This document shows, piece after piece, positions 1,797 through 38,003 of a stretch of 53,488 nt of DNA; position 1 is the first letter of the stretch; each line of letters starts with the position of its first letter. Position numbers and translations under genes: made by a program. The stretch is from Marinifilum sp. (GTDB lineage: Bacteria; UBA9089; CG2-30-40-21), in assembly GCA_020717845.1 (NCBI GenBank), contig DYDG01000002.1, positions 1 to 53,488 of the forward strand, in the 5' to 3' direction. The notes beneath the pieces were generated by a model. The model did not search any database and had not been told where the DNA came from. It worked only from the letters and a program-made list of their open reading frames with translations.

Positions 1797-4157
1797 TCAA
1801 TAATATTTCCCATGAAACCATCTTTCTGTCATTCCCCTAATCTGTATACCATTTATAAGCCCTACCCCTGTCTTTTCAGCCTCTATCTTCCCATCCTGAG
1901 TAAAGTCAGAAGTGGTGATACATATTGCCTTATCTTTATCCCTTGCCATCTGATAGCTATGCAATCTCTGGATTGGAGTACTCCCCACATTATGCCTCCA
2001 ATTCTTGCATTGAAATATTACCTTAGAATCGTTTATCTTTGCCTCTATATCTACACCCTTATCGCTGGGACTGCCAGTGATAACAACATCTTTGTAACCT
2101 TCTTTTATTAATACCTCTTTTATGAGTACTTCAAATTCCTTGCCTGAAAGTGTATGTAAGTCAATCTTACCTGTTGCCTTAATTGGTAAAATTATCTTCT
2201 TTTCAATAAATCCCTCATTAGTTTCATCGACATAGTTTTTCAGAACACTTATAATGAAACCCTTATCCTCATTGATGGATTCTATGGCATCCTTATCACC
2301 ATTATCTAAATACAGGCTTAAATTATAAATATAATCGTTATAGTTAAACGCCTCTTTCTTTTTGAGAAGGTCTTCAACTATCCTTGGTGTCCAATCAAGG
2401 ATTCTATTTTGGATGGTTTCTTTTCTGAAGTCCTCAAAGATGGTTATATCTATCTTAGGTAAGAGTGTCTGATTGGGAAGTATATCAAAATACCTCTTGA
2501 TTAATAAATGAATGAGTTTTGCATTTAAGTAGAGTATTTTAAATCCTTGAGATCTTGCTTCGCTGAGAACTATATCTACTGCCTCAAGGAATTTCAATTC
2601 CCTTTTTTCTTTTATGTAGCGTTGCAAGGTGTTATAAACTACTTTATCAAGCCAGACATCACCTTCATAGTAATATTTTTCAGTCTCATCAAGTTTTAGG
2701 AAAAATATAAGGCTATCTGAAGTTATTGACCAATTTGACGACCAGAGGTATCTCATGGAAGGGTCAGCTTTTGCGTATGCAATTCTATGGATTGGCTCAA
2801 ATCCTGCTTTTCGAGCTGAGAGTTTTATCCTGTTTATTATCTCCATCCATCTTTTCTTACCCGCTCTGAAAAATAATACACAATAACCGTAAACCTTTAT
2901 CTTTTTACTGAAATGGTCAAATATCTCATCTAAAGAAGAACAATACTGTTCCCATCTTCTTTTATTATTCCTTTCAGGGCTATCAGTTACAATAACCTCT
3001 TTCTGTTTCATATAGTTTGAGAATTTCCATGTTTCATCACCTGTCCAAAAATACAACCAATCCCTGAAAAGCTGGTTTCTCTCAAGGTAAGGGACAAGTT
3101 CAGAATATGGAGGTTCTGAGAATATCAAATCTACTGAGCCATCAGCTACAGGAATATCATTATAACTCAAGCTGTAAATATTTCTTATAGAATCTGATTT
3201 TAATACTTCTCCAAGCCCCTCATCATCAAACTTAAACTTCATGACTTTGTTAAACCTATCCTCAAAACACAGCCATACATTCCTTTCCATACAGCATTTA
3301 TCAGGGATATGGTACAAATCTTGACTCTTTGCCTTATAATCTGTAATTTTCATTAAATGAAGTGCTGTTACCAATGCCATCTGTAGGAATTCTCTCTCAG
3401 AGGATTTTTCAAGTTCAAGAATTGCCTCTTGAAGCAAACATAAAGCATACTGGTTTCTCTTAGTGAAAAAACAATCGTAATGGTCAGTTTTGCCCGGGGT
3501 AATATTTATTCTCGCATTTATAATTAGATTATGAGAGGGAAATCTATATCCTGAGTTAAGGTTTACAGAATCAATTTTCTTCTTATCAACCTCACTAAAT
3601 TTCTTTTTACGGTTTTCACATTCAGGACATCTGTAAGCCATAACTATATTTTTACCATCATCCATATATAAGTGTGGTGTAGGGTTATAAAATTCCATTG
3701 GATTCAGGTCAAAATATAACCTATCTATGTAGTTTTGTTCCCCACAGCATACGGTAGAATACAAATCCATTATCTTTTGCTTTATTTTACCTTCTAATTC
3801 CTTAAAGAGAGTAATTATCTTCTTTTTATCCAATGACTTTAAAAATGAATCAACAAGATACCATGAATAATTATCAATATCGCCTGCTGTAATCTTACAC
3901 TTATTTCTGATAGCCTCGTAGACAATAATACCTGAACCCATAAATGGGTCGTATAGATGAATTTCGTTTGTTTGACTAATCTTTTCAAAATAGCTTATAA
4001 CTCGGGAAGCGATATCACTTGACTTTCTACCGCTGAATATATATGCGTTTTTACAACAAGCCCATGGGTTAACCTCTGCAGACATTATTAACTCACCAAT
4101 CTCTTTAATTGTAGTTCTTGTTTCCTTTTGTTTCTGTGGGTCTAATAGCCAATACAT
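1797..4157 (-). CDS. DNA methyltransferase fused to Mrr-type restriction nuclease domain
   Basis: A 786-residue protein. The N-terminal half is an amino-methyltransferase: motif I LYDPFMGSG (about 68-76), a CPEC zinc-binding pair near 177, and a catalytic motif IV variant SEPPYS near 345-350. This order (motif I before the PPY motif, with a long insert between) is not the usual beta order. The last 130 residues carry an Mrr_cat fold of the PD-(D/E)XK type: LSGKEFEVLIKEVL, then KGVDIEA and IFQCKNW, giving the D and Q-x-K catalytic elements. One chain may therefore both modify and cleave DNA. Its start overlaps the end of the upstream two-domain methyltransferase by 16 bases, so the two are cotranscribed. 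An alternative start at 4085 has a plausible GGTGAG site. A family name is not assigned. Confidence 0.8.
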   Translation of the reverse strand: MYWLLDPQKQKETRTTIKEIGELIMSAEVNPWACCKNAYIFSGRKSSDIASRVISYFEKISQTNEIHLYDPFMGSGIIVYEAIRNKCKITAGDIDNYSWYLVDSFLKSLDKKKIITLFKELEGKIKQKIMDLYSTVCCGEQNYIDRLYFDLNPMEFYNPTPHLYMDDGKNIVMAYRCPECENRKKKFSEVDKKKIDSVNLNSGYRFPSHNLIINARINITPGKTDHYDCFFTKRNQYALCLLQEAILELEKSSEREFLQMALVTALHLMKITDYKAKSQDLYHIPDKCCMERNVWLCFEDRFNKVMKFKFDDEGLGEVLKSDSIRNIYSLSYNDIPVADGSVDLIFSEPPYSELVPYLERNQLFRDWLYFWTGDETWKFSNYMKQKEVIVTDSPERNNKRRWEQYCSSLDEIFDHFSKKIKVYGYCVLFFRAGKKRWMEIINRIKLSARKAGFEPIHRIAYAKADPSMRYLWSSNWSITSDSLIFFLKLDETEKYYYEGDVWLDKVVYNTLQRYIKEKRELKFLEAVDIVLSEARSQGFKILYLNAKLIHLLIKRYFDILPNQTLLPKIDITIFEDFRKETIQNRILDWTPRIVEDLLKKKEAFNYNDYIYNLSLYLDNGDKDAIESINEDKGFIISVLKNYVDETNEGFIEKKIILPIKATGKIDLHTLSGKEFEVLIKEVLIKEGYKDVVITGSPSDKGVDIEAKINDSKVIFQCKNWRHNVGSTPIQRLHSYQMARDKDKAICITTSDFTQDGKIEAEKTGVGLINGIQIRGMTERWFHGKYY

Positions 4158-6664
4158 TTTTTATAATACTCCTTATCCTTAATCCTCTCCATTGCAATTT
4201 TCAGGTATTCTTCATTCCTTTCTATCCCGGTACATCCTCTTTCATAAATATCTGCTGCCAAGGGAATACTCCCTACCCCCATAAATGGGTCTATTATATT
4301 ATCCTGTGGATTTGTACATCCAAGTATAAGTCTTTTAACCACCTCTAATGGCTTCTGGGCAGGGTGTTTTCCATGTTTTTTTTCTCTTAAGGGTGTCAGG
4401 GGGACATCCCACACATTTCTCATTTGCTTGCCATTATTTAATTCCTTCATTATATTGTAATTAAAAGTCCAATTTTTAGCTTTTTTGGGATTGTTATTCA
4501 CCGCCCATATTATGTATTCTGTGCTTTCGCAAAGCATCCTCTGGGTAATATTAGGGAAGGCATTTCTCTTATACCAGGTGATAGAATTCACAATTCTTAT
4601 CTCTAATTCATTTAAAATCTCGCCTATGGTAAAAATATTATGCATACTTCCAAAGATAATGATATTACCGTTTTCCTTTACCACTCTTGTTATCTTTTGA
4701 ATCCAATCCTTAGTGAACTTCACATAATCTTTATTGGAAAACTTATCCCAATCTTCAGATATCTTTGTGAATTTCTTTTGTTCTGCCCAGTAATCATTTG
4801 ATTTAAGCCAACCAATCTTCTTTTTATGGTCATATCCGGAGATGTTGTATGGTGGGTCAGTGATGCAAGCATCAAATTCATTTTCTCCAAATTCATCCAA
4901 CAAAGACAGACTATCATCAAGATAAAATTCCAAATTCCTATCTTTAAATTTAAGATTACCTTTAGGCTTTAGTGTCCAGGTGTTTTTATCCTTATTGTAG
5001 AGACAAACATCTTCTAAACAACCTGGCAGGTCTCTGTACTTTGTAGAAAGTTTATGAAGTTCTCCTCTCTTATACAACCCTTCAATTAAACCGCTATTAA
5101 CTATCTCGGATGTAGATGCCTCTCCTCCTTTAGCAGATAAAATTTTCTTTACCAAAGTTCTAAGTTCTATCTCTGAATCCCCTGTTTTTTTCTCCTTGGT
5201 TATAGATTTCTTTCTTTTCTGAAATATCAGGAGGCATTCCCCTTTAATTGTAGACTTAGGGCTATTAATTTGCTTATAGGTATACTTATTTCTATGGACA
5301 GGGATTTGCTTAATAAAATCAAACCCGGCATTAGTACAGGCATCAAGGAAATTGCACCAATTCTCAAGTTTAGTATCATTAAACCAGACACAGGCATACT
5401 TATTGGGTTTCAGCACATCATGGATTAATTGAAAGGATTTATGTATATCCTCAAAATATCTTTTGAAGTCTTTGCCTTGTTCCCGATTGCTTACTACAAT
5501 TTCATCCTCTAACACAGCCTTATATCCAGTGAAATATTCCCAGAGTTTTAAGTATTCTGAATAAGCAACGAGGTCCATATAAGGTGGGTCTGTCAGCACA
5601 AAATCAATACTATCAGGAGGGATTTCACCATTACTTATTTTCTGGAATGGTTTATTGAGAATAACCACAGAGTTTGTATTTATATTATTGTGTGTTTTCA
5701 TCCTTATCAATTTATCAAATCTATCTTGAAATAGATACCAGATATTTCTTTCTACTCGTTCTTTAGTTGGTATCCAATAGGGGAACTGAGATTGGGACTT
5801 ACGGTCAGTGAATTTAGCAAGGTGAATACATGAACTCAATACTGCAACAAGGTCTTCTTTTTCCGAGCAGTCTTCAAGTTTAAAGATAATTTCTTTTATC
5901 CTTTTCATGAAATAAAACGCTCTGTTAGGAAAGATATCCAATATATACATTCCATTTTTAATAGCTATCCTCGAATTTGGTAAAAGTTTCATAGATTCAT
6001 CAGGCAATATTTTTAATTCCTCATTAATTGCCATTTGTATATTAACTTCTTCATTGGAGATGTCCCTTTTATAAGTTCTTCCGCAAGAAGGACAATAATA
6101 TTGTAGCATCTTTGGAATATTCACACCATCTTTATAATCATATTCTATTTTTAATAGACTTCCTGAACCTCTACATTCCAAACATAGTACCGAATAATAT
6201 TTTTCAAGTTCATCTTTTAATTCAAATTTGACTTGCGATAGAAAGGTTTGTAGACAAACCAGATCACTTTTTCTCAATATAGTATCAAGGATTTTGACAG
6301 GAAGCTCATTTATTTCCACTCCAATAGGATGTATCCCTTTATTTTGTCTTAATGCCTCAAGAATAGTTGTCCCAGACCCCATAAATGGGTCTAAGAGTGT
6401 ACCTTTATCTGGCAGGAAGGATTTTAATACTAAATCAGTTACATTATGAGGCTTTTTTGACCAGTATAAATGCCAGTCATACATAAACCCCTTTTGGGTA
6501 GGGGTAATTTTAGAAATCTCTTCTTCTAACTTATCAAAATTTATATCCATAGCTTGCTCCGAGTTTGGGATATGAATATTGATATCCTTATTCAAATGGA
6601 AGGATTTATCAAGGCAGTTTGGTTTGTTATGATTCTCAATGGCTAACTCAAGTTGTTGTTCCAT
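4142..6664 (-). CDS. Protein with two DNA methyltransferase domains
   Basis: An 840-residue protein with two distinct amino-methyltransferase domains. Domain 1: motif I LLDPFMGSGTT (about 91-100), a CLEC...CPSC zinc-binding region about 170-210, and motif IV TDPPYMD near 357. Domain 2: motif IV TDPPYNISG near 601 followed by motif I DPFMGVGS near 791, the reverse (beta-class) order. A helical linker rich in lysine joins them at about 500-560. Both are expected to methylate exocyclic amines (N6-adenine or N4-cytosine) with S-adenosylmethionine. Two domains of different order suggest one for each strand of an asymmetric site. It is the first gene after a good minus-strand promoter at 6717-6745 and overlaps the methyltransferase-Mrr gene, so the pair probably forms one restriction-modification system. 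Confidence 0.85.
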   Translation of the reverse strand: MEQQLELAIENHNKPNCLDKSFHLNKDINIHIPNSEQAMDINFDKLEEEISKITPTQKGFMYDWHLYWSKKPHNVTDLVLKSFLPDKGTLLDPFMGSGTTILEALRQNKGIHPIGVEINELPVKILDTILRKSDLVCLQTFLSQVKFELKDELEKYYSVLCLECRGSGSLLKIEYDYKDGVNIPKMLQYYCPSCGRTYKRDISNEEVNIQMAINEELKILPDESMKLLPNSRIAIKNGMYILDIFPNRAFYFMKRIKEIIFKLEDCSEKEDLVAVLSSCIHLAKFTDRKSQSQFPYWIPTKERVERNIWYLFQDRFDKLIRMKTHNNINTNSVVILNKPFQKISNGEIPPDSIDFVLTDPPYMDLVAYSEYLKLWEYFTGYKAVLEDEIVVSNREQGKDFKRYFEDIHKSFQLIHDVLKPNKYACVWFNDTKLENWCNFLDACTNAGFDFIKQIPVHRNKYTYKQINSPKSTIKGECLLIFQKRKKSITKEKKTGDSEIELRTLVKKILSAKGGEASTSEIVNSGLIEGLYKRGELHKLSTKYRDLPGCLEDVCLYNKDKNTWTLKPKGNLKFKDRNLEFYLDDSLSLLDEFGENEFDACITDPPYNISGYDHKKKIGWLKSNDYWAEQKKFTKISEDWDKFSNKDYVKFTKDWIQKITRVVKENGNIIIFGSMHNIFTIGEILNELEIRIVNSITWYKRNAFPNITQRMLCESTEYIIWAVNNNPKKAKNWTFNYNIMKELNNGKQMRNVWDVPLTPLREKKHGKHPAQKPLEVVKRLILGCTNPQDNIIDPFMGVGSIPLAADIYERGCTGIERNEEYLKIAMERIKDKEYYKKCIGY

Positions 6665-6716
6665 GTTAATTCATTCCTTTCTAAATACTTCAATGAATTC
6701 AATTGAACTCATATAT

Positions 6717-6745
6717 AATATACCATATTTTCTAAAAGCTGTCAA
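6717..6745 (-). promoter_or_regulatory. Sigma70-type promoter for the methyltransferase operon
   Basis: On the minus strand there is TTGACA (6745-6740), a 17-base spacer, and TATATT (6722-6717). The predicted transcript would start near 6710, about 45 bases before the ATG of the double methyltransferase at 6664. Confidence 0.75.
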
Positions 6746-6753
6746 GTATTTTT

Positions 6754-7653
6754 TTACAATTCAGGCAAGACAATACTTATCTGTGTTCCGGGAAAGAAAC
6801 TAAGTGCGGATTGTTGAGGTTTTGTGGCATCCCATTGCGGGACTATGCCTACCTTTGCCATTCCTGAGCGAATCATAATTTTACCATTCCATTTTTGGAC
6901 CAATTTTCTGACGCTGGTTAATCCGTGTCCCCTGCCTATGTCATCATATCGAGATGCACTCTCAAATAAGGCAAGCCTGATGGCTACTGAATCAGACCAA
7001 TCCTTACTATACAAATGGCTATATTTTAGCGAAAGAGATTCTTTTACCCCTATTCCTAAATCCATTACAGAAATCTTCACTACCTTTTTACCAAACTTTT
7101 TCCCATAAAAATACTTTTGGATACCCACATAGCCTACATCCTGGCTATGTTCCGGAATATTCTGGCAAACCTCTGATAGGGCAACAATGAAGGAATCAAT
7201 CGCCATATTATCATAATGGAGATGCGTCCGGAGAATGATCTCGGCACCCCTCTTCACCCTATCCACTATCGAATGAATGTCATCCGAACCCTGTATTTTT
7301 GTCATCTCAAGCAAGACATCTGAATGCCTGCTTCGCAAGAATCGTTCCCCTATCTGAACTGTGGAAATATCCATCTCAAAGGGAGGGCTGGCATTCTTGA
7401 AAAAATCCATTCGCTCAAGATATTTTAATACATTCACTGATTCGGGGAAGTTCAGTATTGGAGCAATACCCAGCTTCTTCCTCAAATACCAGCCAAATTC
7501 CAGTAATCCAATCATTCCATAGGGATCGATAAACTCAATCTTTTCTAAGTTGATGATAACTTCGTTCCCTATCATGTCCCGATTAGATTGTAGCAATAGA
7601 TGCTCAAATGTATTTTCGTCTAAGTATGCAGGTGAGGATAAATTACATGGCAT
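6754..7653 (-). CDS. STAS-like domain fused to GHKL ATPase
   Basis: A 299-residue soluble protein. Residues about 1-95 look like a STAS/anti-anti-sigma domain (VIINLEKIEFIDPYGMIGLL). Residues about 130-299 are a GHKL ATPase: N-box ALSEVCQNIPEHS, G1-box DLGIGV, and G2-box GRGHGLTSV. A separate STAS antagonist and serine kinase normally form partner-switching pairs; here both are in one chain, as in other STAS-HATPase fusions of unknown role. The catalytic asparagine and both glycine boxes are present, so ATP binding is expected. The start has a strong AGGAGGAGACATT site before ATG. It stands alone between the methyltransferase promoter and the nucleotide-sugar dehydrogenase. The target is unknown. 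Confidence 0.75.
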   Translation of the reverse strand: MPCNLSSPAYLDENTFEHLLLQSNRDMIGNEVIINLEKIEFIDPYGMIGLLEFGWYLRKKLGIAPILNFPESVNVLKYLERMDFFKNASPPFEMDISTVQIGERFLRSRHSDVLLEMTKIQGSDDIHSIVDRVKRGAEIILRTHLHYDNMAIDSFIVALSEVCQNIPEHSQDVGYVGIQKYFYGKKFGKKVVKISVMDLGIGVKESLSLKYSHLYSKDWSDSVAIRLALFESASRYDDIGRGHGLTSVRKLVQKWNGKIMIRSGMAKVGIVPQWDATKPQQSALSFFPGTQISIVLPEL

Positions 7654-9393: not shown

Positions 9394-9606
9394 TTATACA
9401 TTAATTTTCTTGAACTCCTTTATTTCTTTGACTATATCATCAACTGTATATTTAGTAAAAAGTTGTTTGCGTTCTTCAGTATAGTCTCCGAAACCAACAG
9501 AGAAATAATTGATAAACCTTGCCGTGTTTGCAGGACCGATTTGAGCTGTCAGAATATGCATCGCATCACTTATGACTTCGCACATGGGTTTTTGTTCAAT
9601 AATCAT
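9394..9606 (-). CDS. 70-residue protein paired with PIN-domain gene
   Basis: A 70-residue protein with no recognised fold. It contains a short sequence around AMHILTAQIGPANTARFINYF and ends in a lysine-rich helix (DDIVKEIKEFKKI). Its start codon overlaps the stop codon of the PIN-domain gene in the arrangement ATGA, so the two are translated together. A small gene paired with a PIN-domain ribonuclease is usually the antitoxin, although antitoxins more often come first. The helical content would fit an antitoxin or an adaptor. It could equally be an unrelated conserved small protein. Sequence family unknown to me. Confidence 0.65.
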   Translation of the reverse strand: MIIEQKPMCEVISDAMHILTAQIGPANTARFINYFSVGFGDYTEERKQLFTKYTVDDIVKEIKEFKKINV

Positions 9607-10043
9607 AATTTAAGCTCCTTTATCAAGTCTGTTGGTGAAAGCACTTTTACCTTGTTCACCTTCTTTGACCTTGCCTTTTTAATAATTTCATCATCACATG
9701 TACAAAAAAAGTCAGCATTGCCTGCTTCCGCAGAAGCTAAATGCAAAGAATCAACCCCTCTGAAGCCAAACTGTTCCAACTCAACTGCACGTTTTTTGAT
9801 TTCTTCTGTAAGAGATACATCTATTCTCGCTTTTTTCAGGACATCTTCAGCATATTCACGTCTGACGATATTCTGGCAGTTTCTGATTTCAAACCTTAGA
9901 ATATCCGAAGTAATCAAATCAGCATGTTTCCCTTTACAAAATTCTATGAGTCCAAGTATTGAGTCAGCTTCAAGTATAATTCTTAGTTGACGTTTTGTAT
10001 CTAAGGGTCTTTGAATACCGCAAGTGTCAATATATATTTTCAT
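9603..10043 (-). CDS. PIN-domain protein, putative ribonuclease toxin
   Basis: A 146-residue PIN-domain protein. The acidic residues of the metal site are visible: MKIYIDTCG (first Asp), the middle glutamate in SDILRFEI, RGVDSLHLASA (third acidic site) and the CTCDDEIIKKA segment near residue 115. PIN domains cleave RNA with bound Mg or Mn, most often as VapC-type toxins. The ORF starts inside the last codons of valS (ATGA overlap) and its end overlaps the 70-residue gene in the same way. It is therefore embedded in the valS transcript, which is unusual for a toxin-antitoxin locus. Function as a toxin is inferred only from the fold and the small partner. Confidence 0.8.
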   Translation of the reverse strand: MKIYIDTCGIQRPLDTKRQLRIILEADSILGLIEFCKGKHADLITSDILRFEIRNCQNIVRREYAEDVLKKARIDVSLTEEIKKRAVELEQFGFRGVDSLHLASAEAGNADFFCTCDDEIIKKARSKKVNKVKVLSPTDLIKELKL

Positions 10044-12691: not shown

Positions 12692-12823
12692 TACGTTACT
12701 CCTGTCTACAAAATACGGAATGCGTTGTCGAATTTCAAGCAACGGTTTGCATTATTTGCAAAGTTGCCTTTATGCAATTTAGCGAAGCGTTACAAATATG
12801 CTGTTATGCTGTAACCAACAAGC

Positions 12824-13039
12824 CTAAACTGCCATTTTTAATACTTCATATCTAACAGGAAAAAGTTGTTCCATATCTATATGTTTCGAAGCATCAAGAA
12901 TCTCAATTCCTACCACTTTCTCATCGTTACCTATATCCAGCACAATATCATCAGAGACTCGTCTGTTTATAATATCTTGTTTCCTATCGTCCAGCCGAAG
13001 ATATAACAAGTCAGTTTTATCATCAATCTGAATTCTCAT
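12824..13039 (-). CDS. DUF2283 family small protein
   Basis: A 71-residue protein of the DUF2283 family, recognised by DKTDLLYLRLDD near the start and the DIVLDIGNDEKVVGIEILDAS core. The family forms a small beta-rich fold and is commonly found beside toxin genes or DUF4258-type partners, but its role is not established. It lies 38 bases downstream of a 55-residue ORF on the same strand and about 130 bases upstream of valS. The gap before valS shows no obvious T-box element. It is probably a short accessory operon with its upstream neighbour. Confidence 0.85.
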   Translation of the reverse strand: MRIQIDDKTDLLYLRLDDRKQDIINRRVSDDIVLDIGNDEKVVGIEILDASKHIDMEQLFPVRYEVLKMAV

Positions 13040-13077
13040 ACGATCTTCCTTTTCCCTCGTGATATTCTCTGCTTCCC

Positions 13078-13245
13078 TTAATTCTTTTCAAACTCAGAGG
13101 TTTGGGATTTTAAAGCAGCACTCTTGAGTACTGGTGGTTTTAAACTTTTAGGATCAATTTTTTCACCTTTAGGTTGATATCCTTCATTAAGTATTCTTGG
13201 TTGATAATCTCTTGTTTTAATCTCCTTCTTACTCCTCTCTTTCAT
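13078..13245 (-). CDS. Small lysine- and proline-rich protein, 55 residues
   Basis: A 55-codon minus-strand frame with a strong purine-rich ribosome site (AAGGGGGTGGAAAAG) directly before ATG. The protein is very basic and low in complexity: it contains a repeated YQP (DYQPRILNEGYQPKGEK) and the segment PKSLKPPVLKSAALKS. It is predicted to be disordered. It sits just upstream of the DUF2283 gene in the same direction and may act with it. No family is recognised. The good ribosome site and clean codon use suggest a real gene. Confidence 0.6.
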   Translation of the reverse strand: MKERSKKEIKTRDYQPRILNEGYQPKGEKIDPKSLKPPVLKSAALKSQTSEFEKN

Positions 13246-13367
13246 CTTTTCCACCCCCTTTTACCTGATATTCAAAAAACTCTATAAATTTAATCCTATC
13301 CACATTTGTTTAAGAACAGTTTCTTTTGTATTATCAAGAGAGCTACACAGCAGAGGTTGTTAACTTT

Positions 13368-14576
13368 TTAGATATTATCCCATAAATTTTTAAATACTAA
13401 CCCTCGAATATTCTCAAAAGCATCAACAATGGAAAGGGTTGTATCCCCAACATTATTAAAATCTTTATGCTTACCTCTAACACCATTGCTTCTAAAATAA
13501 GTTGTAAGGTCAATAGCTGCATCAAAAATCATAGATAAGTATTTTTTAGTTTCTTCATATGTCAACCCAGATACATTATCACATTGAATTTTTAGACATT
13601 GCAAATAGTGTCTAAAAGCCTCTCGTTCAGAAAAATTAACTGTTGTTGGTTGTGCTCCTTGAAATAAAATGTCAGTATAATTCGAATTGAATACTGGATC
13701 GGTTTTCATATCTTTAAGAATTCCGCCACTATGAGCTATATCCAAGAACTGTATTTGATATTCAGTTAATGCCTGTGGACAATAATACCATGTGCTTTTT
13801 CGTCCTCCTTCTTGTTCATCATCATCTATTTTAAAATCACCTAAAGGAAACATTCTGGTTTTCATCCATGTACCTGCACAAATAGCATCAACCTTTGCTA
13901 ATGATAGAAATAAAAATTGATGATTAGAATACCCAACTATTACAGTTTTTTCAAATAGTTTTAAACCAGCAACCAAATCAAATAAATTAATTAACCAAGA
14001 AGCATTATCAATCAAGTAAGAATTGTTAGGATGTATAGGTACAATATAAAAACCGTCAACAGGATAATTCTCTAAATAATCGAGCAAAGCATGAGTTTTT
14101 TCCTCATTTTTTAATAAATCTTCGCCAATACAAAGGGTCATATATTTTGGAATCTTTATATTCATTTTGTTAACAGCATTTTGAATAATAGAATTTATTT
14201 TATCAAAATCACCGTCTACATTAGAAAAATATATCCCTGGAATAATGAATGCATTGGCTTTTAAGGGCAAGACATAATCATTATATAAAACATTTAACAT
14301 TTCAGAACAGCCACTACCATTTAAAAACATGTTTGTATTGTAATTTGAAGGCCAAAAAGAATGTTCACATAGATTCTCATGAGATGTTCTGGGTACATAA
14401 AATTGAGGATCAAAAATCACCGAACCGTTATATTTCTCTAAACTATCTGACAGATTAAGCATTTTTTCGATAGTCATATTTTTAGGACTTAAAATGGATG
14501 TTGCCCCTTTCCATTTTTTATTTAGCTCAACACAATGTTCACGCATTCCATGACCCATTTGTAAATATAAATTCAT
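13368..14576 (-). CDS. Unknown 402-residue protein of kinase-linked cassette
   Basis: Third gene of an AT-rich three-gene cassette. No named family is recognised with certainty. The protein is soluble and starts MNLYLQMGHGMREHC. Conserved-looking motifs are ILSPKNMT, SVIFDPQFYVPR, AFIIPGIYFS, DGFYIVPIHPNN and VDAICAGTWMKTRMF. The alternation of hydrophobic strands with helices, and the late segment combining a glycine-rich strand with VDAICAGTW, resemble a TIM-barrel such as the tRNA-guanine transglycosylase superfamily. That resemblance is weak and is inference only. The start has a GAGGATAATTGT site. It begins 10 bases after the kinase stop, so the kinase or its substrate is probably functionally linked. 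Confidence 0.7.
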   Translation of the reverse strand: MNLYLQMGHGMREHCVELNKKWKGATSILSPKNMTIEKMLNLSDSLEKYNGSVIFDPQFYVPRTSHENLCEHSFWPSNYNTNMFLNGSGCSEMLNVLYNDYVLPLKANAFIIPGIYFSNVDGDFDKINSIIQNAVNKMNIKIPKYMTLCIGEDLLKNEEKTHALLDYLENYPVDGFYIVPIHPNNSYLIDNASWLINLFDLVAGLKLFEKTVIVGYSNHQFLFLSLAKVDAICAGTWMKTRMFPLGDFKIDDDEQEGGRKSTWYYCPQALTEYQIQFLDIAHSGGILKDMKTDPVFNSNYTDILFQGAQPTTVNFSEREAFRHYLQCLKIQCDNVSGLTYEETKKYLSMIFDAAIDLTTYFRSNGVRGKHKDFNNVGDTTLSIVDAFENIRGLVFKNLWDNI

Positions 14577-14586
14577 ACAATTATCC

Positions 14587-15453
14587 TCATTCTATTAGTG
14601 TGCTTTTAACGACATCAAAAAGAACTTTAGCTTCAGTCACATTTCTCGGTCTTCTAGAGATTCTATTATCGCCAAGTGTCTTAATAAATCTTGCTAATAG
14701 GAATTGAGTATCACCAGATATTTTTAAACGCGGTAGTGGTTGTTGCTCTATATTTTTTATAATTTGAAGAATGTCATTAGCATTTTGTATATATGGATTA
14801 TAACCAAGGATCATTTCAGCAGCAACAACACCTAATGAAAACAAATCAGTTCTGATATCAATTTCTCTCTTACAATTTCTTAACTGTTCTGAAGCTGAAT
14901 ATCCTACAGTACATGGTCCGAAAGGAGAATTTGTAGCTGTAATGGATTGTAAATCAAGATGTCTTGAAATACCAAAGTCAATTAACCAGAATTTATTTAA
15001 TTTATCTAATATAATATTTTCTGGTTTTATATCTCTATGGACGATTCTATTAGACTCAGCTTTTTCGAGTATACTTAGCATTACATCAAAAAAATTGATA
15101 ACCTCTGTTAATTGGAATTTTCTTTTTTCGCTAATTTCTTGTCGTAATGATAAGCCTTCAATATATTCCTCAACAATCCATATTAATTCATTAGGACTTG
15201 TTATCTCATCTATATTTGTCTTAATAATTACTGGTATATGACTGCTATTTAAAATGTTACAAGCTCTAACCTCACGCTTAACTCTTTCTAAAGAGTTTTC
15301 ATCAGAATGTATTATTTTTAATACAACTGTTTGATTTTCATAAAGAGCTTGATACACATGTTTTTGTCCTCCTTTTCCAATCAATTTTATTATTTTCAAA
15401 TTTTCAATTCTTGAATTTATTGAGTCAATCATTTCTTGTGTAATGTCAAACAT
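14587..15453 (-). CDS. Serine/threonine protein kinase (Hanks type)
   Basis: A 288-residue compact kinase with no membrane segment or extra domain. All key elements are present: glycine loop IGKGGQKHV (about 22-30), the lysine in VVLKII, the catalytic loop IVHRDIKPENI, the metal-binding IDFGIS, the activation-segment end GYSASEQL (standing in for APE), and DLFSLGVVAAEMI. It should transfer phosphate to serine or threonine of a protein target. Its ATG overlaps the stop of the upstream nuclease-like gene by 8 bases and has GGGGTGAATT before it, so the genes are translationally coupled. Soluble stand-alone kinases within small cassettes occur in several phage-defence systems; that role here is inferred from context. 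Confidence 0.9.
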   Translation of the reverse strand: MFDITQEMIDSINSRIENLKIIKLIGKGGQKHVYQALYENQTVVLKIIHSDENSLERVKREVRACNILNSSHIPVIIKTNIDEITSPNELIWIVEEYIEGLSLRQEISEKRKFQLTEVINFFDVMLSILEKAESNRIVHRDIKPENIILDKLNKFWLIDFGISRHLDLQSITATNSPFGPCTVGYSASEQLRNCKREIDIRTDLFSLGVVAAEMILGYNPYIQNANDILQIIKNIEQQPLPRLKISGDTQFLLARFIKTLGDNRISRRPRNVTEAKVLFDVVKSTLIE

Positions 15454-16144
15454 AATTCACCCCTTTAGTTCTACCAATATATTCATGCATAAACCAGGTA
15501 GTAATATTTGAAGGCATTACATTTTTATCTGGATTCTTTATTATTTTATAATTGTTTTTGTAAGAAATAATTCCAACACTGGTATTTTTGTAACTATTTA
15601 ATAATTTTTCTGATATAGTATTTTCTGGAAAAAGAGAATATGATTTTGACGAAAAATACGTATTATTGATTGATTGCTCTAATGCTCTTTTCCAGTCCTT
15701 AAGCTTTGCTTCAATAGCAATAATTTCTTTAATAAAGAAAATATTTTTTAATGGTTTGGTTTTAAAGTTAAAACATTCCATTTCTTTGATTAGATTAATG
15801 TTACATAAAATATCAAGAGAATTTAAAATTACCTTTTTTGAAAAACCAAGCTCTGTAATTAATTCATCAATATTTTTACTATTAGATGATATATACAAAT
15901 GGTGAAGTATTTTTATGTCTGTAGTAGTCAACTTATTACGTTTTTCATCCCACTGAGTTCTCATTGATTTATCCCAAATTATACAAACTAAGTCTGGATA
16001 ACCAAAACCAGTAAAGGGTTCTTCAATTAGAGTATAATTATATTTCTCTGGATATTTATTATTATTAAAAAAATCAGATGATAAAAAATCTTTTAAAAAC
16101 AAGTATTCTTTTGTGATTTTCTGATTGGGTCTGATATAAATCAT
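15446..16144 (-). CDS. Putative PD-(D/E)XK-like protein with winged-helix insert
   Basis: First gene of the kinase cassette, 232 residues from the ATG at 16144, which has AAAAGGTG just upstream; a GTG at 16162 is an alternative. The N-terminal part contains TLIEEPFTGFGYPDLVCIIW, and after an insert the motif IIAIEAKLKDWKRAL followed by a helix. The pattern of an acidic residue, PD, then E-x-K on a strand followed by an amphipathic helix is that of PD-(D/E)XK nuclease folds. The insert between (about 75-125, TTTDIKILHHLYIS and ELGFSKKVILNSLD) looks like a winged helix. The fold assignment is inference from motifs. It may be a sensor or effector that the kinase controls. Base composition is strongly AT-rich. 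Confidence 0.6.
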   Translation of the reverse strand: MIYIRPNQKITKEYLFLKDFLSSDFFNNNKYPEKYNYTLIEEPFTGFGYPDLVCIIWDKSMRTQWDEKRNKLTTTDIKILHHLYISSNSKNIDELITELGFSKKVILNSLDILCNINLIKEMECFNFKTKPLKNIFFIKEIIAIEAKLKDWKRALEQSINNTYFSSKSYSLFPENTISEKLLNSYKNTSVGIISYKNNYKIIKNPDKNVMPSNITTWFMHEYIGRTKGVNYV

Positions 16145-16216
16145 ATAGCACCTTTTGGACACTTTTAAAATGTTTGTATCATGTCTATCTAATGCGGTTA
16201 TTTTCTACCACTAAAA

Positions 16217-33982: not shown

Positions 33983-34593
33983 TTAGAAATAGGCTGTTTT
34001 ATCCAAAGTTTTTTCAAATTCATCTCTAAATCTTTCAACTATATCTTCATTTTCTTTTTTCCATCGGTTAAACAATTTCGAACATCCGCTTCCCCAATAT
34101 TGTGCTTGGAACATAAACCATTTTTTCATTATTTCTCTATTATCACTAATATTTGCCAAATTCCTAAAACAAACTTGTTGAGTGTATTGTCCTGTTCCAC
34201 CCCAGAAAGGATCGTTTGCAGGTAAATCTCTCAAAAATTCATAAAAAATGTCTTCTGTCCTTTTACCTCCGGGTAACAAAAGAACTCGAGGAATATTGCA
34301 CGGACAATATCCCCATTATCTAATTCAACAGAGTACTTATGTTCTCCTGTTTTATCATTGTTTGGATAAGAAAATCTGAATACTTCCGAAAACTTAATTT
34401 CAAATGGTTTATCACTTATTGTCTTAATATTCTTCCCTTTTTCTCTAAAACTAAAGATATTTCCAGCAAGTCCTAAAATAGATGATTTCCCAGTACCATT
34501 CTGTCCTGCAATTGCAGTTATTAATTTCCCAAATTTTATCTCAATGTTTTCTATGTGCCTAAACTTTTCAATTTTCAATGTATTAATTTTCAT
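33983..34593 (-). pseudogene. Broken AAA ATPase of the restriction-modification operon
   Basis: Two overlapping frames make one degraded gene. The first (34593-34231) starts MKINTLKIEKFRHIENI and has a perfect Walker A (AGQNGTGKSSILG). The second (about 34300-33983) has RVLLLPGGKRTEDIFYEFL, a Trp-rich WGGTGQYT segment and a lysine-rich end. The switch needs a one-base gain or two-base loss near 34293-34298 (ATATT). Even when joined, about 200 residues remain, without a visible Walker B or signature motif, whereas related AAA proteins (SMC/RecF-like) are several hundred residues long. The middle of the gene therefore appears deleted. It overlaps nothing but starts 6 bases after the D12 methylase stop, so it belonged to that operon. 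Confidence 0.7.
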
Positions 34594-34598
34594 AATAA

Positions 34599-35411
34599 TT
34601 ACTTCTCCACAATATCATAATTTGCAATCAACAATTCTTTCCCCTTTTGTGCTGTTTGCTGTTTATAATTGTTCATTCCGTATTGCAATTCCCACTCAAC
34701 CTGATAAAAGTCTCTAAATAATGTTCGGATATATTCATTATTATCATAGGTTATTAACCATTTATGTTTACATTGCTTGAGATTTTCAAAAAATATTTTG
34801 TGATCAAACCCTACATGAAGACACCCCTTTTTCCCATATAACCTTGACTGAGTAGTTGAATAATATGGTGGGTCCAAAAAAATAAACACATTTTCTCCAT
34901 TTCTATATAAAAGCTCAGTATAATCTTTTGGGCTGAATTCTATATGTTTAACAATATTGTAAGCGTTTTCTAATCGCTCAATTGAAGACAGTGTAAATCG
35001 TTTTTCAAATGCTTGTTCTGAATATCCTCCACTATCTACAACACCAGAAAATGTAATTCTGTTTAGTACAAAAAAATCAATTGCTCGCTGAAAATCTGAT
35101 AATGCCTGCTTTCGTTTAGCAATAAGTTCTTGAAATAATTCTCTTCCATTGACATATTCTTTTTTTACTCGGAGGATTTCTTTGATTAAATTATCCTTAT
35201 TTGATTGTAATTCCTTCCAAAAACAATATAAGTCATAATTTGCATCACTTGCATAATACCGAGTAGATGATTTTTTTTGAACACAATAAAATGAAAATGA
35301 CCCTCCTCCAAAAAACGGTTCTCTCAACTCTTCATATTGAGGAATGAAAGCAGAAAGATAGCCTACTGCCCTGGATTTTCCTCCTGGATAACGCAAAGGA
35401 CTCTTAATCAT
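34599..35411 (-). CDS. D12-class DNA adenine N6-methyltransferase
   Basis: About 270 residues of the Dam/DpnM (D12) family. Motif X/I: SPLRYPGGKSRAVGYL and REPFFGGGSFSF bind S-adenosylmethionine; the catalytic motif is FIFLDPPYYST; YDNNEYI follows. It methylates adenine N6 in a short site; the recognition sequence is not readable. The ATG at 35411 overlaps the stop of the nuclease gene by 8 bases (ATGATTAA) and has AGAGGAAAAAAG just before it; the longer GTG start at 35426 is less likely. Together with the nuclease and a second methyltransferase this resembles DpnII/MboI-like operons, which carry two methylases. Confidence 0.92.
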   Translation of the reverse strand: MIKSPLRYPGGKSRAVGYLSAFIPQYEELREPFFGGGSFSFYCVQKKSSTRYYASDANYDLYCFWKELQSNKDNLIKEILRVKKEYVNGRELFQELIAKRKQALSDFQRAIDFFVLNRITFSGVVDSGGYSEQAFEKRFTLSSIERLENAYNIVKHIEFSPKDYTELLYRNGENVFIFLDPPYYSTTQSRLYGKKGCLHVGFDHKIFFENLKQCKHKWLITYDNNEYIRTLFRDFYQVEWELQYGMNNYKQQTAQKGKELLIANYDIVEK

Positions 35412-36555
35412 CTTTTTTCCTCTCACCGTATTCTATTACGACCTCAAAGTTGTTTGCTCTTGCTTCCTTGAACAAGGTATTAACAAATTCTTCTTTATTT
35501 TTCCTGAAACGGTTCTCATGGAAGAATGTTTTAATCTCACTTTCGTTCATATTTGTTGTAATTTTGCCCTGTATTTTTTCGGATGTTAGCCTGAGTACAG
35601 GAATAAAATTGACAAGCGTTTTTGAGTTAATATCTGTTTCTTCATAAAGTTTATCTATATTTGAAAAAAGCATCATCTTGATAAGCCCATCTTTTATATC
35701 ATTTTCTCCAGGTAAAATTGACTTTTTGGAATGTTTGCTTTCGATAAGTTCATACCTGTTGTCATGAATAATCACATCATCAACTGTTAGAAAATATTTA
35801 CCGCCCAAATAATTCTCTATTTCGATAGGTGTTTTTACTCCTACGCTTAATACCTCTTTTGGTTGAGTCGTCCCTATTTCTCTTTTCTGTGCCTGAGCAG
35901 ATTTGAGTCTTGAAAAGGCTAAAAAACTCTCTTGACTTATAATGATACGTTCTCTGAAGGCTTCTATCCCTGCTTCATTATGAAGCTTAACGCCTGTCTT
36001 ATTTGAAATTAGTCGATAACTGAGAATGACTTTTTCCATAAGACCATCTAATTTTTCAGGGCTCAATTGATTTAAGTTCCAGTGTAGAGCAGATGAATGA
36101 TAGTTGGATAACTCCTTTAATTGAGCTTTTACGAAATCACCATCCAACTGTTGTTTTGTTATTCTATTTGGTTTTTGAGCGTCTCGATAATTCTTTTGGG
36201 CATCCATATAATAAGCAAGGATGACATATACATTTAACAAGCTCATTAATTGGACAGTGTCCCATTGGAGATAGTCTATGTTTTGAGAATCTGCTCCTTC
36301 ATCTTTTACAATAGGTATAACCGTAATGGTTTTTCCTCCACAAGTAGATAAAGTGTCATACACACTGGCGAATGGATATGTTCTTGTTCTTTTCGGACCA
36401 GTCCATTTACTGACTGCATAAATTGTATCGTTATCCTTAATACAACATCTTGATTGCCAAGCATTCACATCAGTATCAAATAATACGGTTAACAAAGGGC
36501 TTTTAAGAAAACTTTCGTACCTCATATTCATTATTTTGCCAATTAATTTGGACAT
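35404..36555 (-). CDS. Probable type II restriction endonuclease
   Basis: A 383-residue protein between two methyltransferase genes. No family name is recognised. A PD-(D/E)XK-like catalytic motif is visible: FLTVDDVIIHDNRYELIESK (about 254-273), where an aspartate pair precedes E-x-K on a beta strand, followed by a serine-rich turn and the helix NDIKDGLIKMMLF. The N-terminal 240 residues are mainly helical and could form the recognition domain. A GGGGG ribosome site lies eight bases upstream of ATG. The stop overlaps the D12 methylase start, and the RadC-methyltransferase gene ends 16 bases upstream. Position and motif support a restriction nuclease; specificity unknown. Confidence 0.75.
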   Translation of the reverse strand: MSKLIGKIMNMRYESFLKSPLLTVLFDTDVNAWQSRCCIKDNDTIYAVSKWTGPKRTRTYPFASVYDTLSTCGGKTITVIPIVKDEGADSQNIDYLQWDTVQLMSLLNVYVILAYYMDAQKNYRDAQKPNRITKQQLDGDFVKAQLKELSNYHSSALHWNLNQLSPEKLDGLMEKVILSYRLISNKTGVKLHNEAGIEAFRERIIISQESFLAFSRLKSAQAQKREIGTTQPKEVLSVGVKTPIEIENYLGGKYFLTVDDVIIHDNRYELIESKHSKKSILPGENDIKDGLIKMMLFSNIDKLYEETDINSKTLVNFIPVLRLTSEKIQGKITTNMNESEIKTFFHENRFRKNKEEFVNTLFKEARANNFEVVIEYGERKKDD

Positions 36556-36571
36556 ATTTACAACCCCCTGT

Positions 36572-37687
36572 TTATTTAGTTATTTGGTTTAATCGTTCAA
36601 TAGCATATTGAACATACTTTTCCTGAGTATCAATCCCAATATGTTTCCGTCCTAATTTCTCAGCAACTATATTTGTTTGTCCGCTTCCAGCAAATATATC
36701 GATAACAGTATCGTCTTTATATGAATAAAACTGAATAATTCTTTTGGCTAATTCTTCTGGAAAAGGACAGGGATGAAGATTTTGTTGGGGAGCAACCGGG
36801 GGAATCTTCCAGACATTTTTGCTCAGTTCTCCTTGATAATCTCTCAAATCAATCTTATTTGTTTGCTTATCTTCACGTGAACGAAAGTAGTAGATATTAT
36901 TTTCTTCCTTTTTACCTGCTGGCTTTTGGAAAACCAATACATATTCAGCAACCAAACTTGGATAATAATAACCTGGATATGGGTGTTGCATTAACACACC
37001 GCTTCTCTTATCTTTTGCAATCTCTTTTTCCCAAATAATATCTTCCTTGAACTGCCAGCCTATTTCCTCCATCCATCCTGTAAAATGAAAAGGTAATGGT
37101 ACTCGGATACCGTTCCATCCTACTGGAGAAATATTCACAACATTATATCCTCCTGGCTTAATAATACGATATAATTCCTTAAATCGATCAGTCAAAAATG
37201 TTCGATAAAAGTCGTAGGAAACTTCTTTGCGTGTCCAATACTCGATTTTTCCCTCAAGTTTTTGGATATGTTCCTCATAATTGATAGCGTTATGATATGG
37301 AGGAGAAGTAAAGGCAAGGATAATAGAATCATCAGCAATAGATTTCATAGCTTCCAGACAGTCGCCTTGAATAATTTCTCCTCGTCCAATTTCATGAACT
37401 CTGATCTTCTCTTGTGTCCATTTAAATCGTCTCCCTAATTCTAAGGCTGAAATAATCTGTAACGCTTTCGTGGTTCCAATCCCTGGGAATTCGCTTAATT
37501 TTTCTATAGAAATCGAATTGTTTAGATTTGTGCGGATATATTCAACCAGTTCTTTGCTTAAATCAAAGACATTTTTCCCTTTAGAACCATGCCCCAAAAT
37601 AATAGCAATCAAATCTTCAGTACTTATTTGTGTAGGATTTTTAATTTCAAGTAATTTTTCTCTTGGTTTTTTAGATTCGGTATTCAT
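36572..37687 (-). CDS. RadC-type helix-hairpin-helix domain fused to DNA methyltransferase
   Basis: A 371-residue fusion. Residues about 6-90 match the N-terminal helix-hairpin-helix domain of RadC/UPF0758 proteins: PREKLLE, TEDLIAIILGHGSKGKNV, and LSEFPGIGTTKALQI. The C-terminal JAB/MPN protease domain of RadC is absent. Instead residues about 98-371 form a beta-class amino-methyltransferase: GEIIQGDCLEAM, catalytic TSPPYHN (126-133), and motif I DIFAGSGQTN (about 329-338). SPPY points to N4-cytosine, or possibly N6-adenine. The HhH domain probably helps DNA binding. First gene of the restriction-modification operon, with AAGGTACG before ATG. The fusion is uncommon; the boundary (about residue 90) is clean. 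Confidence 0.85.
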   Translation of the reverse strand: MNTESKKPREKLLEIKNPTQISTEDLIAIILGHGSKGKNVFDLSKELVEYIRTNLNNSISIEKLSEFPGIGTTKALQIISALELGRRFKWTQEKIRVHEIGRGEIIQGDCLEAMKSIADDSIILAFTSPPYHNAINYEEHIQKLEGKIEYWTRKEVSYDFYRTFLTDRFKELYRIIKPGGYNVVNISPVGWNGIRVPLPFHFTGWMEEIGWQFKEDIIWEKEIAKDKRSGVLMQHPYPGYYYPSLVAEYVLVFQKPAGKKEENNIYYFRSREDKQTNKIDLRDYQGELSKNVWKIPPVAPQQNLHPCPFPEELAKRIIQFYSYKDDTVIDIFAGSGQTNIVAEKLGRKHIGIDTQEKYVQYAIERLNQITK

Positions 37688-37865
37688 CGTACCTTAAACT
37701 TCCTGTCTTGAATTCGATTTATTATGATTTCTTAACAAATCGCAGGTGAACTTCACATAATCTTTATTGGAAAACTCCCCTAAATCCACTCTTGAGAGTG
37801 GGTAGGAAGTGTGTAATCCCCTAAACCACTAAAAGCAAATGGCATGGGTGTACTATCATGAAATG
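37688..37865. other. Spacer with a degraded repeat
   Basis: No gene is seen. It contains a degraded palindrome of the CCCCTAAATCCACTCTTGAG / GGTAGGAAGTGTG family also found at 1090-1162. The segment GTGAACTTCACATAATCTTT at 37746-37765 also occurs inside the 840-residue methyltransferase gene near 4715-4740 (AGTGAACTTCACATAATC...TTGGAAAAC), an identical stretch of about 33 bases, so a small piece of that gene has been copied here. Confidence 0.5.
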
Positions 37866-38003
37866 TCAAAGTCCCCATACTTCTTCCATATTCTCAATCT
37901 CCGGATCATCATATCTATTCGCGAGCCATTCAGGCATTTCTTCTTTTATTGATTCCTTCAAAGTAGAAAAAGCTTCTTCCGATATTTTACTTTGCTCATA
38001 CAT
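37866..38003 (-). CDS. 45-residue acidic protein (uncertain)
   Basis: A short frame MYEQSKISEEAFSTLKESI... that ends EIENMEEVWGL. Composition is normal for a real helical, acidic protein, and the frame remains open upstream without a sensible sequence. Its ATG overlaps the stop of the preceding frame (ATGTATGA), an arrangement typical of coupled genes. No ribosome site is clear and no family is recognised. It may be a remnant. Confidence 0.35.
   Translation of the reverse strand: MYEQSKISEEAFSTLKESIKEEMPEWLANRYDDPEIENMEEVWGL

Follow-up and report, generated by a model that had tools for sequence, protein, structure and literature searches.

Among the closest described systems, PglW of type 2 BREX and DndF carry a nuclease (NERD-REase) fused with a Ser/Thr kinase (PMC12839542). 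In KKP, a pair of kinases bearing CSD/FHA domains is combined with a PP2C phosphatase, and toxicity is set by the balance between kinase and phosphatase (PMC11341870). CapK and CapS, which belong to the GHKL kinases and the STAS proteins, respectively, represent a further arrangement (PMC13373217). Here, we describe a locus of Marinifilum sp. in which a Ser/Thr kinase is encoded between a nuclease-like protein with a winged helix, P1, and a TIM-barrel protein, P3. Among open-access PMC papers, no description of this triplet was found.

Gene order, composition and acquisition of the triplet

The stretch of DNA analyzed in this study, hereafter the window, comprises 53,488 nucleotides of contig DYDG01000002.1. 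The triplet occupies positions 13368-16144 of its minus strand and encodes, in this order, P1 (232 aa; 15446-16144), a soluble Hanks-type Ser/Thr kinase (288 aa; 14587-15453), and P3 (402 aa; 13368-14576). Two alternative starts are available for P1, an ATG at 16144 with a strong AAAGGTG ribosome site, resulting in 232 aa, and a weaker GTG at 16162, resulting in 238 aa. The latter matches the upper limit of 16162 given in the original prediction. The kinase start, whose ribosome site is AAGGGGTGA, overlaps with the stop of P1; ten bases separate the kinase stop from the P3 start, whose ribosome site is GAGGATAA. The three genes are thus tightly coupled and equipped with good ribosome sites, as had been predicted. 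The claim that the base composition is far more AT-rich than on both sides was also borne out. The GC content of the triplet is 0.284, and all 508 of 508 sliding windows of equal size have higher values, while GC3 amounts to 0.17-0.20 in the triplet genes versus 0.39-0.45 in five flanking genes. Two other parts of the window, 2001-7000 and 34001-38000, are AT-rich too (GC 0.31-0.36) and may represent further acquired segments. Directly downstream of valS, at 9603-10043, a 146-aa PIN-like protein was recognized by eye.

A same-genus genome (G002) contains valS, an MGMT-like gene, and two tRNA-Ser genes in the order found in the window. Homology between the two sequences ends at position 12702 and restarts at 16214; in place of 12703-16213, G002 has 657 bases (L087, 5389-6045) with two small genes. 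Because G002 keeps the flanking genes without the triplet, we conclude that the triplet in the window was acquired. It is carried by the insert at 12703-16213, which is missing at the syntenic valS/MGMT-tRNA-Ser site, and gene content at the valS/MGMT junction is variable. The distribution of P3 in its phylum is patchy, with one of 19 genomes containing the gene. As judged by eye, the two small genes of G002 are a DUF433/DUF5615 toxin-antitoxin pair, and a small DUF2283-like gene accompanies the triplet within 12703-16213.

Recurrence of the triplet as a mobile unit

Scanning of IMG/VR and GTDB genomes yielded 59 non-duplicate loci, with the window counted in. Profile searches detected P1 and P3, with the kinase beside P3, in 56 of them. 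The full triplet is missing only from L019, L060, and L063, whose contigs are short or cut, and one locus (L005) has a shortened kinase frame. Among the hosts are a haloarchaeon, a Heimdallarchaeote, and members of about a dozen bacterial phyla; the triplet is carried on plasmids, in prophages and a P4-like satellite, and among Mu-like phage genes, and it was also found on viral contigs. In the haloarchaeon Natribaculum breve, tblastn detected P3 on a plasmid, where the three genes follow the order of the window. Phage records contained no tblastn match to P3, and a DNA-level search of E. coli genomes gave no match. The layout P1-kinase-P3 on one strand occurs at 35 loci and kinase-P3 with a convergent P1 at 21, and the P3 tree requires two changes in all between these classes. 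Distance matrices of P1, the kinase, and P3 correlate at 0.56-0.60, which was reached in none of 2000 permutations. The triplet is AT-richer than its own flanks in 43 of 47 loci. Phyla are mixed on the P3 tree, where the P3 of the window stands beside those of Actinomycetota, Nitrospirota, and Bacterium C-53.

A reverse search starting from P1 recovered the full triplet in six loci (L094, L095, L096, and L099-L101), of which L096 is a new divergent one. On four phage contigs (L102-L105), P1 is intact, the kinase truncated, and P3 gone, with the remnants lying between structural genes. These are decayed copies, in which the loss of P3 goes along with that of the kinase end. The other matches were one contig end and one lone short P1 (L097, 3776-4306), a P1-like nuclease of 176 aa located among phage structural genes and accompanied by neither kinase nor P3. 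We conclude that the three genes move horizontally as one unit. The original prediction had proposed a neighborhood analysis and had named a lack of conservation, or a match to a housekeeping pathway, as evidence against itself. That analysis revealed conservation of the triplet in bacteria and archaea as well as on mobile elements, and the kinase alone matches a family.

The triplet lies in a P4-like satellite (L003), between a prophage ImmA-type gene and the prophage integrase (L004), among Mu-like structural genes (L012), and adjacent to a Tn7-like TniQ/transposase set (L041). At other loci, a type I REase immediately precedes the triplet (L028), a type III MTase closely follows it (L062), or an Eco57I/MmeI-type MTase lies next to it (L013). 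At L030 (6348-9182), the triplet is part of a BREX-type operon with the order DUF6079, DNA MTase, triplet, BrxH helicase, and PglZ, and the reading frames overlap on both sides of it. In the genome carrying L030, no PglW exceeds the curated cut-off, and the triplet possibly takes the place of PglW in this operon. Many neighbors are ordinary genes, some of them metabolic. The prophage moron sites, the P4-like satellite, the BREX-type operon, and the RM and Tn7-like genes fit a role in defense. In a minority of loci, a calcineurin-like phosphoesterase adjoins the triplet, namely in L003 (6982-7740), L013 (9225-9914), L040/L042 (9917-10681 in L040), L046 (9957-10724), L049 (9959-10723), and L056 (4397-5167), and it is encoded nearby in L010. 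This optional fourth gene could reverse the action of the kinase.

Features of the three proteins

In an alignment of 49 P1 proteins, E151, K153, and Q163 were invariant (49/49), and E19 (48/49), G54 and D57 (46-48/49), and G197 were nearly so. The E151-x-K153 motif is encoded at 15704-15712 and D57, the catalytic-type aspartate of a GxxD motif (48/49), at 15992-15994, both on the minus strand. The structural model of P1 (pLDDT 92) shows the elements H18-27, E41-47, E58-64, insert, E144-152, H157-167, and E173-179, so that a predicted PD-(D/E)XK core is split by a winged helix (residues about 65-141 in the 238-aa numbering; 15740-15970, minus strand). The elements follow the core order alpha-beta-beta-beta-alpha-beta of PD-(D/E)XK proteins, with an acidic residue in helix 1, an aspartate before strand 2, and ExK in strand 3. 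Four P1 relatives of 169-170 aa are devoid of the insert and retain E, GxxD, ExK, and QxY. Matches to sequence profiles were restricted to the winged helix, and Foldseek comparison with solved structures returned winged-helix proteins only, none at E<=1e-3. PDDEXK_9 was weakly matched by one of 46 P1 members, and the only PADLOC match of the window protein was a weak one to CasR. Because the profile and fold searches match the winged helix only, the nuclease assignment rests on motifs, topology, and the insert-free homologs. These features suggest that P1 is a nuclease of the PD-(D/E)XK type whose core harbors a winged helix, in agreement with the PD and E-x-K pattern around a winged helix noticed in the original prediction. 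Alternatively, P1 could serve as a regulator in which the nuclease fold is vestigial.

The kinase, predicted to be intact, indeed contains all catalytic motifs: K46, E61, HRD at residues 139-141, D159, and G161. The HRD catalytic loop (15031-15039, minus strand) and DxG are retained in 49 of 49 proteins, and the catalytic lysine, HRD, the DFG-type aspartate, and a Pkinase profile match identify the protein as a Hanks-type kinase.

The third protein had been described as lacking a recognizable family, and none of Pfam, NCBIfam, and PADLOC names its family. Scanning of 51 P3 homologs revealed no Pfam or NCBIfam family, with PF01702 (TGT) absent from all 51, and in PADLOC isolated single-member matches only, up to E 1, which did not amount to a family. 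In PHROGs, two of the 51 members gave one weak match each, to unnamed families. The model of P3 (pLDDT 93) shows a (beta/alpha)8 barrel followed by a helical C-terminal extension. The invariant residues Q6, G8, S30-P31, D56-P57-Q58-Y60, P113, and G235/N239/F243 map in the model to the C-terminal ends of strands 1, 2, 3, 4, and 8 or to positions immediately behind them; D56-P57-Q58, at the end of strand 3, is encoded at 14403-14411 of the minus strand. Active sites of TIM barrels lie at the C-terminal strand ends. P3 is confidently predicted to be a TIM barrel with a conserved, enzyme-like rim.

Fold comparison of P3 with solved structures retrieved generic barrels, none at E<=1e-3, and a sequence search of solved structures gave chance matches only. 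Among the matches in a viral fold library, the queuine tRNA-ribosyltransferase of a Sulfolobales rod-shaped virus reached the highest target TM-score (TMt 0.57, E 1.4e-3). An hhalign comparison of P3 with TGT of relatives and ten phage DpdA sequences resulted in a probability below 1%. Membership of P3 in TGT/DpdA was rejected because the hhalign result was not significant, and the resemblance serves as a fold-level lead. The TGT-like TIM barrel of the original prediction therefore holds at the level of the fold and fails as a profile relationship. The host genome itself (G000) has no TGT (PF01702) match, whereas its three same-genus relatives do; this may reflect incompleteness of the assembly and is given no weight here.

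Possible functions and relation to known systems

The genomic context suggests a role in defense, in support of the sensor-effector defense or stress system of the original prediction. We consider the chances about even that the triplet is a horizontally mobile conflict module, most likely directed against phages. A more specific and tentative reading is that of a new immune module, common to bacteria, haloarchaea, Asgard archaea, phages, and satellites, in which a phosphorylation-gated winged-helix-in-nuclease effector is combined with a previously unnamed TIM-barrel enzyme that acts as the sensor or as an additional effector. In the conflict module as we envisage it, P1 would be the DNA-damaging effector, a RecB-like PD-(D/E)XK nuclease docking on DNA via its built-in winged helix. 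The kinase would act as a switch that phosphorylates P1 and/or P3 and thereby releases or restrains cutting. P3 would sense an infection-derived ligand, such as a nucleotide or a modified base, and relay the signal to the kinase; alternatively, it may be a second nucleic-acid-directed enzyme. The identity of the sensor, the phosphorylated protein, and the choice between phage and host DNA as target are put forward as proposals.

The triplet might instead be a toxin-antitoxin or lysogeny/stability module operating by phosphorylation, a principle demonstrated by KKP (PMC11341870), with a kinase that is toxic or controls prophage genes. P1 would then be mainly a winged-helix DNA-binding regulator, and the antidote would be the phosphatase encoded by the fourth gene of some loci, or P3. 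Both the phosphoesterase gene beside a minority of the triplets and the occurrence in prophage lysogeny regions would suit such a module, which we nevertheless regard as unlikely. The phosphatase is missing from the window and most loci, the nuclease residues E151, K153, and Q163 of P1 are invariant, and the insert-free homologs retain the nuclease core and drop the winged helix, which is the opposite of what a regulator predicts.

The likeness of P3 to TGT raises the further option of a restriction-like activity against modified phage DNA, in which P3 would recognize or exchange a modified base, P1 would cut the marked DNA, and the kinase would license the reaction. Apart from the viral TGT with its leading TM-score, the invariant DPQ closing strand 3 seems to be placed like DSGG/DSGA of TGT/DpdA. 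The nucleophile of TGT is the strand-8 aspartate, however, which is not conserved in P3, and neither hhalign nor Pfam relates P3 to TGT; we judge this option to be quite improbable. Least probable in our view is a stress or metabolic module outside defense, for example in the DNA-damage response, that has spread on mobile elements. The ordinary metabolic genes among the neighbors speak for it; the patchy distribution within the phylum and the phage, satellite, and BREX contexts speak against it.

The anti-phage reading remains the one we prefer. Regardless of function, the triplet is a defined three-gene unit with an as yet unnamed protein family; it crosses the divide between bacteria and archaea, and phages carry it themselves. 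If the defense role is true, phosphorylation control of a DNA-cutting effector and the role of a TIM barrel in immunity become directly testable.

In PADLOC, neither the P1 of the window nor P3 matched a system-defining model. With regard to the defense kinases PD-T4-6 and Stk2, the kinase domain matches PD-T4-6 best in PADLOC, although the match spans the generic kinase domain only and many other kinase models match as well. P3 shares with TGT/DpdA the TIM-barrel fold and, presumably, an aspartate-containing motif after barrel strand 3, but differs in the lack of significant profile similarity and of the conserved nucleophilic aspartate in strand 8. The triplet resembles CapK/CapS and VapKSC in the logic of kinase, winged-helix protein, and nuclease in defense, yet no GHKL or STAS fold match was found in it. 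Like KKP, which is prophage- and P4-borne and anti-phage, it is a Ser/Thr kinase module present on prophages and a P4-like satellite. The two kinases and the PP2C phosphatase that define KKP are not found in the triplet, which combines a single kinase with a nuclease-like protein and a TIM-barrel protein; its optional phosphoesterase is of the calcineurin type and unrelated to the KKP phosphatase. Adjacent PglZ, MTase, and DUF6079 genes, indicative of type 2 BREX, occur at L030 only, and neither in the window nor at most loci. Unlike PglW/DndF, the triplet consists of separate genes, stands alone in almost all loci, and adds a TIM-barrel protein; its P1 has no NERD match in Pfam and carries the winged helix inside the nuclease core. 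Like PglW/DndF, it couples a restriction-type nuclease domain, a Ser/Thr kinase, and a winged-helix DNA-binding module. A true defense role would mean that the nuclease-plus-kinase logic of PglW/DndF exists also as a compact stand-alone module.
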